The translations under genes were made by a program, and so were the position numbers. From positions 1-64,000 of the forward strand of contig PLRS01000035.1 of the NCBI GenBank assembly GCA_003164035.1: a stretch of 64,000 nucleotides of DNA, written 5' to 3'. Below the pieces are notes generated by a model, which saw nothing but the letters and a program-made list of their open reading frames with translations, was not told the origin of the DNA and ran no database searches. Within the stretch, counting starts at the first letter, position 1; the number at the start of each line of letters is the position of its first letter. The DNA is from Bryobacterales bacterium. Its GTDB lineage: Bacteria > Acidobacteriota > Terriglobia > Bryobacterales > Bryobacteraceae. Shown piece after piece: positions 1 to 7,100 of the stretch.

Positions 1-602
1 TGGAGATGATCGAGGATTCGGAGAATATCGACGCGGTTGTGTCGAACTCCATCAGCAAGGCGTTGGCACTGGCCCTCGATTATGCTGCACTCTACGGCTC
101 CGGCGCTGCTCCGGCTCCGACAGGCATCAAGAATCAGAGCGGAGTAACCCTCACCGTTCTCGGCACCAACGGCTACTCGCTGGTTGACTGGTCGAAGTTC
201 TCTCAGGGGATCTCGACCCTCATGCAAGCGAACGTCGAAGGGCCGTTTGGTGCGATTTACAGCGCACGTACCGCGGGCGAGCTGGACAACCTCCGCAATA
301 CCTTGGGCGACCCCATGCGCCAGCCAGACCTGGTGGCGAAGATGGCGAAGTTCGTCAGCAATCAGGTTCCCAATACCCTCACGGTCGGAACCGCGACCAC
401 AACCAGCGATGCTTTCATCGGACAGTGGGACCAGTGCATGATTGGGTACCGCAACTCCATGACGATGGAGATTTCGCGTGAGGCGGCCGATTCGACCGGG
501 AGCGCGTTCACGAATGCCCAGGTGTGGATTCGGGCGTACCTTCGCGCCGATGTGCAGCTTGCGCATCCGCAGGCCTTCAACGTTTTGACGGGCCTTCTGT
601 AG
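1..602 (+). CDS. HK97-family phage major capsid protein, C-terminal part (5' partial)
   Basis: The frame is open from the window edge to a TAG at 600-602, so only about the last 200 residues are visible and the true start lies outside. The sequence has the look of HK97-fold capsid C-termini: a stretch rich in small residues around Gly-Ser-Gly-Ala-Ala-Pro (about residues 31-37), then a segment on trimming and folding subunits, then a late Phe-x-x-x-Gln-x-x-Ile-Arg-like strand (VWIRAYLRADVQL) that normally closes the P and A domains. The protein would form the icosahedral phage head. The first in-frame ATG at 6 is internal, not a start. The gene is followed by two structured repeat units and, further on, an integrase, so it belongs to a prophage or prophage remnant extending to the left of the window. 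The capsid call rests on overall pattern, not on a catalytic motif. Confidence 0.75.
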   Translation, partial: EMIEDSENIDAVVSNSISKALALALDYAALYGSGAAPAPTGIKNQSGVTLTVLGTNGYSLVDWSKFSQGISTLMQANVEGPFGAIYSARTAGELDNLRNTLGDPMRQPDLVAKMAKFVSNQVPNTLTVGTATTTSDAFIGQWDQCMIGYRNSMTMEISREAADSTGSAFTNAQVWIRAYLRADVQLAHPQAFNVLTGLL

Positions 603-607
603 GCTCA

Positions 608-740
608 ACGACATTGCCGGCGCATCCTCAGCCTCATGACCGGCAGGCAACGCTGCCTCTTCCAGATTTTCAGGGCAGCACAAACCGTTGCTCCTTGATG
701 GGCTGAACTTGGGGGCCGCTAGTTCGCACCTAGCGGTCCC
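608..740 (+). ncRNA. Candidate structured RNA unit 1 (pseudoknot plus closing hairpin)
   Basis: This is the first of two related units after the capsid gene. A hairpin pairs TGCCGG at 615-620 with CCGGCA at 640-645. Its loop holds TCAGCC (628-633), which is complementary to GGCTGA (701-706), giving a possible H-type pseudoknot. The unit ends in an 11-bp hairpin, 712-722 with 730-740, that has no clear T-tract after it. The same layout recurs at 756-869 with compensating changes. No known RNA family is recognised; a phage regulatory RNA or riboswitch-like leader is inferred from structure only. Confidence 0.45.
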
Positions 741-755
741 TGTATTCCAAAGTTC

Positions 756-869
756 GACGACATTGCCGGCGCATCCGTCAGCTAATGACCGGCAGGGCTA
801 CTTCATCGGCCTCCTTGATGGCTGACTTCGCGGGGGACCGCTGGCGATTGACGGCGGTCCCCTGCTTTT
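756..869 (+). ncRNA. Candidate structured RNA unit 2 (pseudoknot plus terminator-like hairpin)
   Basis: This is the second copy of the structured unit. TGCCGG (763-768 region) pairs with CCGGCA (788-794 region). The loop holds GTCAGC (777-782), which pairs with GCTGAC (821-826); compared with unit 1 the pairing register shifts by one base and both strands change together. It closes with GGGGACCGC (833-841) paired with GCGGTCCCC (854-862), followed by TGCTTTT, which looks like a rho-independent terminator. A start codon at 902 follows with a GAGGA ribosome binding site, so the unit could be the leader of that gene or an independent transcript. Confidence 0.45.
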
Positions 870-901
870 GAGCTTCCAAATCAAACCCCGAGGACATCTC
901 T

Positions 902-1180
902 ATGAACGGAACCACCGAAACCTGCGCTGCCGAGAAGGTCTTAACCTCTGGAAAGTTTCAAGGCGCTCGTGTACGCGATATCGCTGACCGTGAGGAGTTG
1001 GCGCTCCATGCAGCCCGCGGCGGATATTGCGCGCGAGAGGACCGGGACGCCATGCGCGCCTATATCCGGAGCCTGTGGGAACAGCAACGGTGGATTGGCG
1101 GCCGGCGGGATCGACCTCGGCTACCAGGTGGGCGCCCGCCTCGGCATAAGGCGCCACGCCAACATAAGGCGGACCTGTGA
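902..1180 (+). CDS. Small phage protein, possibly DUF3820-like
   Basis: The ATG at 902 follows a GAGGA ribosome binding site at about 889-894. The first 50 residues (GKFQGARVRDIADREEL, then ARGGYCAREDRDAMRAYIRSL) resemble small phage proteins built on a Gly-Lys-Phe/Tyr-x-Gly-x-x-hydrophobic motif followed by a short helical segment. From about residue 55 the translation turns into an Arg/Pro-rich tail that looks like out-of-frame GC-rich DNA. A shift of one frame near 1090 would read Gly-Ile-Asp-Leu-Gly-Tyr, so either a frameshift or simple overrun is possible. Function unknown. Confidence 0.35.
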   Translation: MNGTTETCAAEKVLTSGKFQGARVRDIADREELALHAARGGYCAREDRDAMRAYIRSLWEQQRWIGGRRDRPRLPGGRPPRHKAPRQHKADL

Positions 1181-1771
1181 CCTTCTGGGGGTGCCATCGT
1201 TGCAACCCAGCCCCTTAAGACCGTCCGCCGGTAGGGTGGGTCGGATCTCTGGCCGAGTGGCCGCGTTGATCGTGCGACCGTCGTTTACACGCGCGGACAG
1301 GTTTCAGACACGTTACCAGGTTTCAAGCACCAAACCAAGGTGTACAGGAAAACCATACAGTTTCTCCAATGGAACGGTGTAGCACTCCGCCGAAGTGCTA
1401 GTCCTGCAAATATCCTGGAAACCTGTAATAACCTGGCAAAACCTGGCACCTCCCGGCTCGATGCCCTGGTGAATCTGGCCCGCGCGGTGAATCGTCGGCT
1501 CCGGCTCGATGAATGGGGGTTTAAGTTTCCGCGCGTCTCCGTATTGGCCTACGCCCGCGCGGACGGGGGACCGCAACCTATCCTCCTTCGGTTGCGGTCC
1601 CGGTGGTTCTCGTATTTCCAGTCGCGGTGACTCGCGGGGTTTGCCTTGTCACGGCAAGCCCCGCATTTTTGCTTTCCGGAGAATTCGGAAACGGGGTGAG
1701 AAGGGTTTGAGGTCGAAGGGGCGTTCGGGTTCAGAGGGGGGATGCTTCCGGCTGTTTTGGGGGTTACACTA
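1181..1771. promoter_or_regulatory. Phage control region with clustered CAGGTT sites and no confident gene
   Basis: No convincing gene is seen in these 590 bases. CAGGTTTCA occurs twice in direct orientation at 1298-1306 and 1317-1325. The opposite orientation follows at 1416-1425, 1430-1436 and 1438-1446, where ACCTG recurs at 1421, 1431 and 1441, exactly 10 bp apart, so these copies face the same side of the helix. Between the two groups lies an inverted repeat, AGCACT (1381-1386) with AGTGCT (1394-1399). The position upstream of the helix-turn-helix and integrase genes suggests operator, excisionase-arm or iteron sites; which of these cannot be told from sequence. Confidence 0.45.
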
Positions 1772-2149
1772 ATGGGTGATTTCGGGTTGCTGAGTCCCGA
1801 GCGGGTATCGGAGATAACAGGACAGGCGATTACGACGTTGATGTCCTGGCGGTCGCGCAATGCGGGTCCGCCATTCGTAAAGATTGGCCGAAAAGTATGG
1901 TATCGGGAACAGGATCTACTCGCGTGGATAGAGAGTCGGGTCCGGGTGACAGACGATGAGCCTCGAACAACGCAACGGCAAGTGGTTCTACCGATTCTAC
2001 GCGCTAGGCCGCGAGTGGTCAAAGGACACCGGCTTGGTCGCCACAAAACGCAACGAGAGCGCGGCCACGATGATGGAGTCAGAGGCGCGCAAGCTGGTGA
2101 AGCAGGGGCGGGCGGACGAGCTGAGGCTCGATCCGAAGCCGTTCAGTAG
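1772..2149 (+). CDS. Helix-turn-helix (MerR/HTH_17-like) protein, probable excisionase
   Basis: The N-terminal 60 residues have the pattern of small DNA-binding excisionase-type proteins: LLSPERVSEITG (helix 1-turn), SWRSRNAGPPFVKIGRKVWYRE (recognition helix, then the wing typical of HTH_17), then DLLAWIES. ATG 1772 is preferred over ATG 1742 because a GGGGG stretch lies about 11 bases upstream, while the earlier ATG abuts its G-tract. The reading frame runs 194 bases into the integrase gene. Beyond about residue 70 it is Arg/Gly-rich and looks like a shadow of the integrase, so the true gene may have lost its stop codon. Xis-int order and overlap suit control of phage excision. Confidence 0.6.
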   Translation: MGDFGLLSPERVSEITGQAITTLMSWRSRNAGPPFVKIGRKVWYREQDLLAWIESRVRVTDDEPRTTQRQVVLPILRARPRVVKGHRLGRHKTQRERGHDDGVRGAQAGEAGAGGRAEARSEAVQ

Positions 2150-3098
2150 CGCGGCCGATATGTTCGTCCAGTGGGCGATGGGCGAGCATCGTGAGAAGCC
2201 GGAAACGTGGAAGCGGCTGCGCGGGAGTTGCACAAGCCTGAAGGCCTTCTTTGGGCATCAGCCTGTCCACACGATCACAGTGGGGCGTGTTCAGGACTAT
2301 ATGAGTTGGCGCCGGATCTGTACCGCGTGTGCCGGAAATGATCCGGGGTGCGAGGTCTGTGAGGGAACCGCACGGGGGGTCGCTGAGGTCACGCTGAGGC
2401 ATGATCTCCACGCGCTGTCGCCGTTGTTTCAGTACGCCATCGATCACAACTGGTGCGTTCATAATCCAGTCGAAAAGGTCAAGATACCAAGCGACAAGGA
2501 TGCGGTCCGTATTCACGTGCTCACTCCGGGTGAAGAGATGAAGTACTTCGCCGCGGCGCGCGCGATTCCACACCTGTATGACCTGGGGCGCCTGATGATC
2601 TTGCAGGGACCGCGGCCGTCAGAGGTGATGCAGGCCCGCGTAGAACATATCGACCTCAAGAGCGGTACGTGGTCTATCCCTCAGTCGAAATCGACGGCGG
2701 GGCGCCGGACGCTGAAACTGGTACCGGAAGCTCGGGCGATCATGGAGGCGCGGGTCGCGGGCGCGACGCCTGCGGGTTGGCTCTTTGAAGGCAAGGCCAA
2801 GAATTCTCGACTGACGGACGCGGGGAACGGCCATCAGAAGATCCTGAAAAACACTGGTCTGGCGTTCGTGCTCTATGACCTCCGTCACACGTTCGCTACG
2901 CGCATGGCTGAGCGGGGTTGCGACGTGATGGCTCTAGCGAAGATCCTCGGTCACGCGAACCTGAGAACGGTAATGCGATACGTCCACATCGGGCAAGAGC
3001 ATCTTGAGGTCGCAATGCTGAAATTCGGCGAAGGCGCGCGACTGGAGCAGGAGCCTAAGATCCCGTTGGCGGATGGGAGACGGGAGACGATTCAGTAG
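1956..3098 (+). CDS. Phage tyrosine recombinase / integrase
   Basis: The protein has 380 residues, a normal length for a phage integrase. An N-terminal arm-binding part (1-60) is followed by a core-binding SAM-like domain (about 65-175) and the catalytic domain. Catalytic positions visible are Arg220 in the box GPRPSE, Lys245 in the beta-turn, Arg310 in LRHTFAT, His333 in ILGHANL and nucleophile Tyr342. The usual first His of the HxxR box is Tyr307. An unusual Cys4 loop, C122-x2-C125-x6-C132-x2-C135, sits inside the core-binding domain and looks like a zinc knuckle. The gene lies 460 bp from a tRNA-Cys gene whose 3' end points toward it, the usual place for an integrase near its attachment site. 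The start ATG overlaps the upstream helix-turn-helix gene. Confidence 0.9.
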   Translation: MSLEQRNGKWFYRFYALGREWSKDTGLVATKRNESAATMMESEARKLVKQGRADELRLDPKPFSSAADMFVQWAMGEHREKPETWKRLRGSCTSLKAFFGHQPVHTITVGRVQDYMSWRRICTACAGNDPGCEVCEGTARGVAEVTLRHDLHALSPLFQYAIDHNWCVHNPVEKVKIPSDKDAVRIHVLTPGEEMKYFAAARAIPHLYDLGRLMILQGPRPSEVMQARVEHIDLKSGTWSIPQSKSTAGRRTLKLVPEARAIMEARVAGATPAGWLFEGKAKNSRLTDAGNGHQKILKNTGLAFVLYDLRHTFATRMAERGCDVMALAKILGHANLRTVMRYVHIGQEHLEVAMLKFGEGARLEQEPKIPLADGRRETIQ

Positions 3099-3556: not shown

Positions 3557-3633
<77 letters not shown>

Positions 3634-4159: not shown

Positions 4160-7100
4160 ATGCGTGTAAGTGGTTTGGCCGCCTGTGCCGTGTTGTTGTG
4201 CCTGGGCCGGGCTCTGGCGGCCCAATCGGTCAACGTGGTAGGGGCCACGCCCACTCAGGCCGTGGTGGCCATCGGAAACGCGAACGGCTTTTGCACGCTG
4301 GCCATGTCGGAGTCCTCCAGTTTCGCGCCCTTGGCGCACGACGTGGATCCCCACCTCTATCCCAGTTCCAATATCGATATGTTGCGGCCGGACACCATCG
4401 TCCAAAGCGACGGAACCCGTCTGGTAACCCTGGGCCACATGACGGGCGACCGCGCGTTGGCCGCCGCCACAACCTACTACCTGGGAGTTTCCGGCTGCGG
4501 CGCAAGCGTCACCGTCACTATCGCTACGCCTACCGTCGGCGTTGGCACCACCATGCAGTGGCCGGTGCCCATCGACCCGTCCGGCTGGGGCAGGCTGGGC
4601 TTCCCCAAGATCGATCTGGTCCATCGGCACAGTTACGTCGACCCGCTCACGGGCGTCCGCATGATTCCGATCAACCTGGCCGGGCATTGGTCCTGGCGAA
4701 CTGGCGGCGGTTGGGGCGCAACCTACCCGTTCACGCAGACCGGATCCAACGCCTTCGCCGATTACGCCGGCGGTTCCGGCTGGAATAATCCGGCGGATGT
4801 GCTCAAGGGCTCCTCCAGCCAGTCCTCCACCGGCAGCACCAGTCCCATCGACCTCTATACCGGCGCGGAGACACCCGACCGCTCGCCCTGGCAGGGCTGG
4901 CATACCTTCGACGATTTGGGGCTTTTGATCTACGGCTCGGCGTCGAGCGGCTCGGCTCCCGACAACCAGATCTCCCTCTGCATTTTCCTGAACCCATCCG
5001 GGGGCTGCGTGGGCCAGCCCATTATCATCAGCCTTCCCACCCAGTTTGCACAGGTGGCCTCAGCAGGCAGCGACCCCGACCACCCCTGGCCGGCCAGTTT
5101 CCCTTCGCCCCTATTCGCGGGCTGGGGAATCCATGCCCCCATCCCCGCCGAACGGCGCATGTCGAGCGGCAACTTATCCGCCTCGGGCGGCGTCCTGACC
5201 CTCGCGTCAATCAACGGCACGCAGTATTTCTCCGACGCTCTGTTCAAAGGCAATCGCATCAAAATCGCCGGCTCCGGATGCTCGCCCAACTCGATGTGCA
5301 CGATCGTCTCGGTGGCCAATGCCGCCTCCGCGGCCATCGCCGAAAACATCTCGGTGAGCAACGCGGCCTTTTTCGCCTATGGCTGGGGCGTTCGCATCCA
5401 GAAGGTCACAGCCAACGGAACCATTGTCGTGGGTGCGCGCTGGAAAGCGGCGGGCAGCGCAACCGTGGGAACCCGAGCCGACCCGACGCCCTGCTCGTTC
5501 CTCCAGGTCACTTCGGGGGATGGCAAAACCGGCTACGTCTGCGAGGTCAGCAGCCCGCAAACCGGCACCGACTACTTCTATTTCGTCGCCGACGACGGCA
5601 CCATTCGCCGTTTCAGCGCCGCCCTCACCCCCAACCATCAGACCCAGCTCAACTCCATGCCCGCCGCGGACCGTCCGGCTGGCCCCGCCAACAACGCCTA
5701 CTTCCCTCTCGGTTTCGACCCGGTGAACCCTAATCTGTTCTACGCGGCGTGCCCCAACACCAGTGGCTCCTCGTCGATCTACCAGTTAGCTTATAGCGGC
5801 GATTATACTCAGGACCTCGATTTTCAATACGCCGGTGGCAGCGATACTACCCTCCCCGATAATTATGCCCCGGCGCTGGACCACATGACCTGGACTAACC
5901 TAATGCCCCCCAGCCAGGGAAGGGACCTGAACTCGCAGGTGGTCGCCGCCTATCCCAACTACAACGCCGCCATATTTGGCGATTGGAAGCACCCAAGTTT
6001 TGCCGGCGTATCCGGAGGCAAGGCTTTTTTCTACAATCTGTACTCGGGTCAGGACGGCGGTCCCGCGTGGATCGCCGTCGTCGATCTGCCTTCCGGCAAT
6101 CTTACCAACCTGATTCACACCGCCGATGGGACCGGCACCAACGACCTTCTGCGCTGGGGTGCGGAGCACTCCGTGCAGGCCGTCAACGCCGTTCCCAATA
6201 CCATGTTTCAGGCCACCAACACACTGAATTCCAACAACCCGGGCAAGTTGTTGGGCGGCCCCTTCGTGATGGCGGTTCTGGGCGTCTCGCGCGGCGGGTC
6301 GTTTTCCTCGAATACCGCGTTGCCGTGGCCTCCCGATTCCAGCTACGATTCCGCGTGCCCGGCCACCAACCCTTATGTCTCTCTGGGCGCCGCCGGCAAT
6401 CAATGTGTCACCCTGCACCTGCCCGCCGGAGGCGCCTGCAGTCCCGCTCCCACCCCGGCAGAACTGGCGCAATGGCCTTGTCCCTGGAACGCGAGTTACT
6501 CCCAGCCGATAGCTCTCGCCGTTGGCGACAGCATGGTGGATTACAGCAAAGGCAGCAATCAAGGCGACAACGAGCATTTCCGCGTTCTTTCGATTGCCGC
6601 CCTTGGCGATGGCAGCCTGTCGGTAGTGGCGGAGCGGGACGCCATGCTCGACTACTGCTGCGCCAAGGGCGATCATGTTGTCAATGGCGTGAGTAACTGC
6701 CTGGGCTCGGTAGCCCAGACCACGCACGCCAACGGCTGGCAGATCATGATGACGCCGGGCCGGCAAAACGCGTGCAACTCCCAGGTCGCCTATCTGAATC
6801 TCGCCACCGGTGCTACCGGAGAAGTGAGCCGCCTGTTGCAGGGACACGGAGACCTGGCCGCGGGTGTATTCACTCCGGGTAACCTCTCCTACATCACCGC
6901 CAGTGCGGTCATCCAGGACGCGCCTTTTTCCAGCCTGTTTCCCGTTCCCGCCGTCGATACCTCCATCGGCTATCCCTCCTTCGCCGGGACCACTCTCCCG
7001 GTGGGTTCCAATCTGGTCCAGACCTATGTCACCCGCATTCGCAGCAACCTCCCTCCCGCTCTTCCCAATGCCCTGCCGTGGATGATCGACGATAACTCGC

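Follow-up and report, generated by a model that had tools for sequence, protein, structure and literature searches.

What are the two structured segments that follow a phage capsid gene at the very start of this contig, and what might they do for the gene that precedes them? We analysed positions 1 to 64,000 of contig PLRS01000035.1 from a Bryobacterales bacterium (hereafter the window), and compared the two segments, W1 and W2, with related units elsewhere. Among 237 genomes of the same family, relatives of the fold were observed in two others, as a twin pair, A and B, in one (G030) and as a single copy, C, in the other (G500). Sequence comparison suggests that the units are probably a real, small and unnamed RNA, a candidate for a new family, with a structure that is fairly well supported in three elements.

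Layout and folding of the units

Both units lie on the plus strand in the sense of the capsid gene, W1 at 609 to 740 and W2 at 758 to 861. A covariance model, R1, built from the four units W1, W2, A and B, gave 86.8 bits for W1 and 98.9 bits for W2, each of which is itself in the model. Each unit consists, in order, of a hairpin (P1) with its loop segment L1, one strand of a pseudoknot (PK) helix, a second hairpin (P3), a CCTTG linker, the partner strand of the PK helix, 5 to 7 nt, and a GC-rich terminator-like hairpin. In W1, P1 spans 615 to 645, with TGCCGG (615-620) paired to CCGGCA (640-645) and CGCATCC (621-627) as L1; the PK helix (628 to 706) joins 628-633 and 635-637 to 698-706 in 9 bp, with 634 bulged; P3 (646 to 692) is of a long form with the outer stem GGCAACG/CGTTGCT; and the terminator-like hairpin (712 to 740, stem 712-719/733-740) is followed by a T-poor tail, TGTATTCCAA. 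The corresponding parts of W2 are P1 at 764 to 794 (764-769 with 789-794; L1 CGCATCC at 770-776), a 9-bp PK helix at 777 to 826 (777-784 and 786 with 818-826; 785 bulged), a short P3 at 795 to 812 (GGGCT/GGCCT) and a terminator-like hairpin at 834 to 861, whose stem (834-841/854-861) extends a few bases further outward and whose tail contains TTTT. The P3 hairpins of the two copies are unlike in both length and sequence. Thus the tandem units proposed in a preliminary description of this DNA, with their TGCCGG/CCGGCA hairpin, loop-to-downstream pseudoknot and closing GC hairpin, could all be located by coordinates.

That description also held that the pairing is kept between the copies, with its register shifted by one base and with changes on both strands. 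The pairing is indeed kept in both. The core of the helix is the same UCAGC/GCUGA in each, TCAGC at 628-632 with GCTGA at 702-706 in W1, and 778-782 with 821-825 in W2, and the apparent register shift is an extra C-G pair at one end in W1 (633/701) and an extra G-C pair at the other end in W2 (777/826). Since the core is identical and each copy adds a single pair, W1 and W2 alone show little compensatory change. Energy folding revealed that the helix exceeds the earlier outline, as the AUG of the linker (698-700 in W1; 818-820 in W2) pairs with a loop CAU in W1, A and B, or UAU in W2 and C. The PK helix thus has 9 bp in W1, W2 and A and 8 bp in B and C, and a single base is bulged in every unit but C. 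The spacer between PK helix and P1 is two bases, GA, but GG in A. Across the five units P1 has 6-8 bp and L1 has 7 nt, and the unpaired letters common to all are CAUC in L1 and CCUU in the linker. On sequence comparison, the loop of every unit pairs 3' of its own stem and this is kept in the homologues, which is the arrangement of an H-type pseudoknot.

The folding energies leave room for competing structures. In the best nested folds W1, W2, A and C retain the PK helix and lose P1; B retains P1 and P3. A fold in which P1 is imposed and the PK strands stay free is less favourable by 5.6, 4.6, 1.6, 1.2 and 5.2 kcal/mol for W1, W2, A, B and C; the duplex energies of the PK helix are -8.7, -9.7, -8.0, -5.0 and -7.0 in the same order, before any pseudoknot penalty. 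With its ends set at 755-865, W2 folds best into another local hairpin that occupies the PK partner strand. Given that four of the five nested folds drop P1 and that W2 has this alternative hairpin, the pseudoknot is possible rather than proven, as is a balance in which P1 competes with the long-range helix.

A terminator-like hairpin ends all five units, with a stem of at least 8 bp in each. The tails have 4-6 T in 10 and are poor, particularly in W1, and a consensus terminator scan of window positions 500-1000 detected none, the W1 and W2 hairpins included. The same interval yielded no promoter-like site. A processed RNA needs no promoter of its own, and together with the terminator-like 3' ends this would suit a small RNA, cut from the capsid mRNA and acting in trans, whose linker (C)CUCCUU pairs with the ribosome binding sites of host or helper-phage mRNAs. 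The linker, which resembles the anti-Shine-Dalgarno end of 16S rRNA, is drawn unpaired and reads CUCCUUG in W1, W2 and B, CCCCUUG in C and UUCCUU in A. However, two of the five units thus deviate from CUCCUU, and the bases adjoining the linker pair in P3 or in the PK helix; we consider such a trans-acting RNA unlikely.

Relatives and covariation

No known RNA family accounts for the units, as the preliminary description had supposed: Rfam 15 found nothing at its gathering cut-off over window positions 1-64000 except a tRNA at 3562-3633, and for the units themselves, at E up to 10, gave four sub-threshold matches, the best of 18.9 bits against a cut-off of 100. The same description had staked its case on the existence of homologues with covarying pairs, and these were found. 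The G030 pair was identified by blastn (E 5.3e-12) among the window's own genome and 60 relatives; at E<=1 some match occurred in 57 of these 61 genomes, those besides G030 and the own genome being noise. Unit C, which lies outside the model, scored 65.4 bits with R1 in the search of the 237 family genomes. That search gave ten matches with E<=0.1, of which three are real and seven, of 23-29 bits, were judged noise. Among 257 genomes of the order, R1 returned the same three and two of the noise matches, and among 297 genomes drawn from the phylum the own genome alone at E<=0.003; these sets overlap, and scans over 40 genomes run stricter filters and may miss weak relatives. The best non-member, at 35.7 bits, is antisense in a hemC-like gene and was seen with laxer filters among 37 relatives of G500. 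An exact-pattern search of the family matched 12 of 237 genomes and was real only in the own genome (G000) and G500.

The distribution of the RNA was thus assessed in about 550 genomes of the same phylum and in the viral contigs of IMG/VR. In the latter, a pattern fitting W1 and W2 of the five units matched 46 stretches, none with the stems; one fitting W1, W2, B and C matched two stretches, both in coding genes and at most 19.4 bits; and one fitting W2 and C matched two, at most 11.5 bits in those loci. Searches of phage records by blastn gave no relative (one 34-base piece at E 0.1), and the plasmid collection gave none either.

The relatives occupy the same position as the window units. The capsid gene just 5' of A and B is 88% identical to that of the window over the shared part, and the one 5' of C is 42% identical to the G030 capsid. 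The distance from the capsid stop codon to P1 is 12 nt in the window, 16 nt in G030 and 15 nt in G500. The twin pairs are alike in having a first unit with a long P3 and a second with a short P3, and C resembles W2. A pseudoknot 12-16 nt past a stop codon brings to mind a signal for capsid stop-codon read-through, and both this distance and the fold resemble retroviral read-through signals. Yet W2 and B, as the second members of their pairs, lie a long way from the stop codon, and the stop is TAA in G030. Nor do the units appear to encode peptides, as the reading frames from the loop AUG or the linker AUG range from 2 to at least 91 codons and differ in frame. A role of either kind is extremely improbable.

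Covariation was scored on a hand-built alignment of the five units (A11) that was fitted to the structure. In this alignment, whose related rows and leaning towards the structure make the figures flatter it, standard pairs fill 139 of the 140 cells scored, and both partners change at 6 of the 31 pairs: two in the PK helix, three in P3 and one in the terminator-like stem. The changes in the PK helix are a core C-G that becomes U-A in B, and the outer pair, which is G-C in W2 and U-A in A; P1 has one-sided changes only. None of 500 shuffles reached the percentage paired, and none reached the covariation score (0.261, against a shuffled mean of 0.147); six double-changed pairs were attained in three of the 500, and the number of pair types was equalled in 42. 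Slid partner strands were only 30-46% paired, and the statistics were similar when a shorter PK helix was used in the alignment. The P3 stems differ in sequence and length and still pair, and the loops are conserved while P3 varies.

These pairs also bear on the level at which the units act. A small mobile element with strong palindromes at the same place in three elements could carry an origin, a packaging site or a recombination site, in which the inverted repeats are used as DNA. Against such a site, P3 keeps its pairing and not its sequence, and the locus is not at the end of the element. In addition, 11 of the 139 paired cells are G-U, where the other strand would have A-C, and this favours a plus-strand RNA over a DNA structure. 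We regard a DNA-level element as quite unlikely.

The individual units are less telling. W1 and W2 have fold z-scores of -2.0 and -2.95, matched by 11 and 2 of 200 shuffles respectively, and the signal comes mostly from the terminator hairpin. When the terminator was fixed and the 160 nt upstream were shuffled, an equal P1 plus PK score was reached in 20, 9, 3, 150 and 3 of 500 shuffles (W1, W2, A, B, C), so that B is not significant. A single unit is therefore modest evidence, and the case is carried by recurrence with compensatory change in three elements, which are all related.

Layouts of this kind were also sought further afield. Nine distant capsid relatives were found in 399 genomes of the class besides the own genome, which with one viral contig made ten loci; the covariance model matched none of them at E<=10. 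A descriptor search at nine of these loci (L073 left out) gave layouts that were matched by 0 of 200 shuffles at L070, 1 of 200 at L065 and 6 of 200 at L063, with no match at the other six. With the terminator fixed, the layouts were equalled in 34 (L070), 16 (L065), 186 (L063) and 225 (L068) of 500 shuffles, and L069 had no match. The layouts at L070, just after the capsid stop (genome G191), and at L065, about 225 nt after it (genome G245), follow the order hairpin, pseudoknot, terminator in unrelated sequence. None of the layouts at these loci was counted as a family member, as the signal is not significant with the terminator fixed.

One may then ask whether the units are more than a terminator with incidental upstream pairings, copied by descent in three related elements. 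Single-unit shuffle tests that range from 3 to 150 of 500, and the similar but fading layouts at the otherwise unrelated capsid genes L065 and L070, would fit such an origin. Against it stand the six double-sided changes, a P3 that differs in sequence and length yet pairs, and the conserved loops, and we find chance or mere descent very unlikely.

The capsid gene, the small gene and their element

The gene upstream of W1 is the 3' part of an HK97-type major capsid gene (3 to 602, plus strand), whose start is off the contig, since the contig begins at window position 1. It matches PHROG 10 and 617 (major head protein; E 5.8e-21 and 1.9e-19) and Pfam Phage_capsid (E 2.6e-17). Relatives of the capsid are distant outside the group: one in viral contigs, at 34% identity, and 23 phage records, all below 60% identity and, among the matches listed, at 24-28%.

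Behind the units, in all three elements, lies a small basic ORF, which in the window encodes 92 aa (902 to 1180, plus strand). Its homologues are 51% and 31% identical to it, and its profile matches the same three genomes and one chance place among the 237. The family has an SGKF-G-R--D core and lies at 902-1180 in the window, at 8450-8709 of L162 (G500) and at 703-891 of L163 (G030). It belongs to no Pfam, PHROG or PADLOC family (searched at E up to 10 for Pfam and up to 1 for PADLOC), and its predicted model is poor (pLDDT 65.6), with no PDB fold match at E<=0.001. The order of pseudoknot repeats, terminator-like hairpin and small ORF resembles that described for the ToxIN and CptIN systems (PMC4627078), and could suggest a type III toxin-antitoxin-like pair in which the tandem RNAs are the antitoxin and the small ORF is the toxin. 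However, the ORF has no Pfam or PADLOC match of the ToxN, CptN or TenpN kind, and its weak model has no fold match; G500 has a single unit; every unit has its own terminator-like hairpin; and the units are 100-140 nt long, against 45 nt for CptI. It is thus highly improbable that they form such a system.

Further along the same element are an excisionase/HTH-like ORF (1742 to 2149, plus strand; PHROG 66, E 1.1e-5) and a tyrosine integrase (1956 to 3098, plus strand; PHROG 1, E 3e-55), followed by a tRNA-Cys gene (3559 to 3633, minus strand) that is likely to be the integration site. The upstream part of the element is absent from the assembly, as the contig starts within the capsid gene. In G030 and G500, the region 5' of the capsid gene shares an ORF of 107-109 aa (58% identity), a sigma/HTH-like protein (61%) and a replication-initiation-like protein (49%). 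The sigma-like protein has no match in the window's own genome or in phage records, and it, the 107-109 aa protein and the small ORF have no relatives in viral contigs. In G500 an integrase lies next to a tRNA-Gln, and replication-initiation-like and capsid genes are present; no end repeats were found. A selenocysteine tRNA gene is situated beside that tRNA-Gln, at the integrase end of the element (L162, 6263-6353). The integrase is absent from the contig of G030. There, a tmRNA gene lies at 7600-7954 of L163, and a 21-bp copy of its 3' end at 6713-6733, near the likely end of the element; their order is unlike that of a simple insertion.

No terminase, portal or tail protein was recognised among the ORFs scanned. 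The setting agrees with the preliminary description in having a phage-type capsid gene 5' of the units, and differs in that a small satellite-like element with a capsid gene seems likelier than a complete phage; in the window, which is cut inside the capsid gene, an integrase and the capsid are seen, the rest being off the contig.

Two of the distant capsid relatives are also carried by integrated elements, at 4469-13703 of L166 (G191; 9.2 kb) and 6218-15276 of L167 (G245; 9.1 kb). They are bounded by repeats of the 3' end of a tRNA, 26 and 31 bp long respectively, and encode an integrase, either a primase or a helicase, and a lone capsid gene of the HK97 type. Of their 12 and 13 ORFs of 80 aa or more, 10 in each element were scanned, and none matched a portal, terminase or tail protein. 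They possibly represent a group of capsid-only satellites.

Proposed role and comparison with known systems

The fold is supported by conservation and covariation, and its recurrence in three elements, its position and sense orientation and the conserved small gene behind it are observed directly in the sequences. The reading that we tentatively favour is that the units may act in cis, as a structured 3' end or an attenuator on the transcript of a satellite-like element's capsid gene. Each unit would be an H-type pseudoknot, with P3 inserted before the PK partner strand, placed just ahead of a strong terminator-like hairpin. Located in the 3' UTR of the capsid mRNA, the units would end or throttle transcription on its way from the capsid gene into the small gene, and might shield the 3' end of the capsid mRNA. 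The conserved unpaired CAUC of L1 and CCUU of the linker may bind a partner, perhaps a protein of the element, and such binding could tip the fold towards either the pseudoknot or an open P1 and so make termination conditional.

An attenuator could also be riboswitch-like, with the pseudoknot binding a small molecule and controlling read-through into the small gene. An aptamer-like pseudoknot with conserved loops, directly 5' of a terminator-like hairpin and in tandem, would agree with such a device. The units, however, follow the principal gene rather than precede it, no metabolic gene is present, inspection by eye showed no anti-terminator that would pair with the terminator stem, and there is no Rfam riboswitch match, so that ligand control seems rather improbable. 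A broader proposal joins the cis- and trans-acting roles. The units would be a new RNA family of capsid-only satellites, in which the pseudoknot switches transcription from the capsid gene to the downstream gene, or a released sRNA blocks the ribosome binding sites of a helper phage, thereby tuning capsid supply; we put this forward as speculation that is unlikely to hold.

If the units are regulatory, a phage satellite would be controlling its supply of capsid at the RNA level. The units also mark a set of minimal integrated elements in which the capsid gene stands alone. Among open-licence PMC papers we found none on a structured RNA of a satellite's capsid gene. Other phage-associated RNA motifs are known: Mu-gpT-DE and int-alpA have conserved structures in intergenic regions of phages and prophages. 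Those motifs occur in other phages and beside other genes, and the units had no match to them in the Rfam scan.

Structured RNA in bacterial 3' UTRs has been described as highly unusual (PMC2864571). The L17 downstream element (RF01708), as presented in the same source, is a structured RNA that lies, as our units are proposed to do, within the 3' UTR of a gene with high expression (PMC2864571). The units differ from it in having no Rfam match, in combining a pseudoknot with a terminator-like hairpin, in their tandem arrangement and in their place behind a capsid gene. ToxI and CptI, the antitoxin repeats of ToxIN and CptIN, are described as H-type pseudoknots upstream of the toxin (PMC4627078), and like the units they are in tandem and precede an ORF, with a terminator in between (PMC4627078) where the units have a terminator-like hairpin. 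In contrast, our units are longer, have an inserted hairpin and a terminator-like hairpin of their own, and precede a small ORF unrelated to any scanned family. At the level of the element, the cf-PICIs are the nearest comparison that we draw, being integrated satellites with their own capsid gene (PMC10803314). They average 14 kb (PMC10803314), whereas the elements described here are short and the capsid is the sole structural gene recognised in them.
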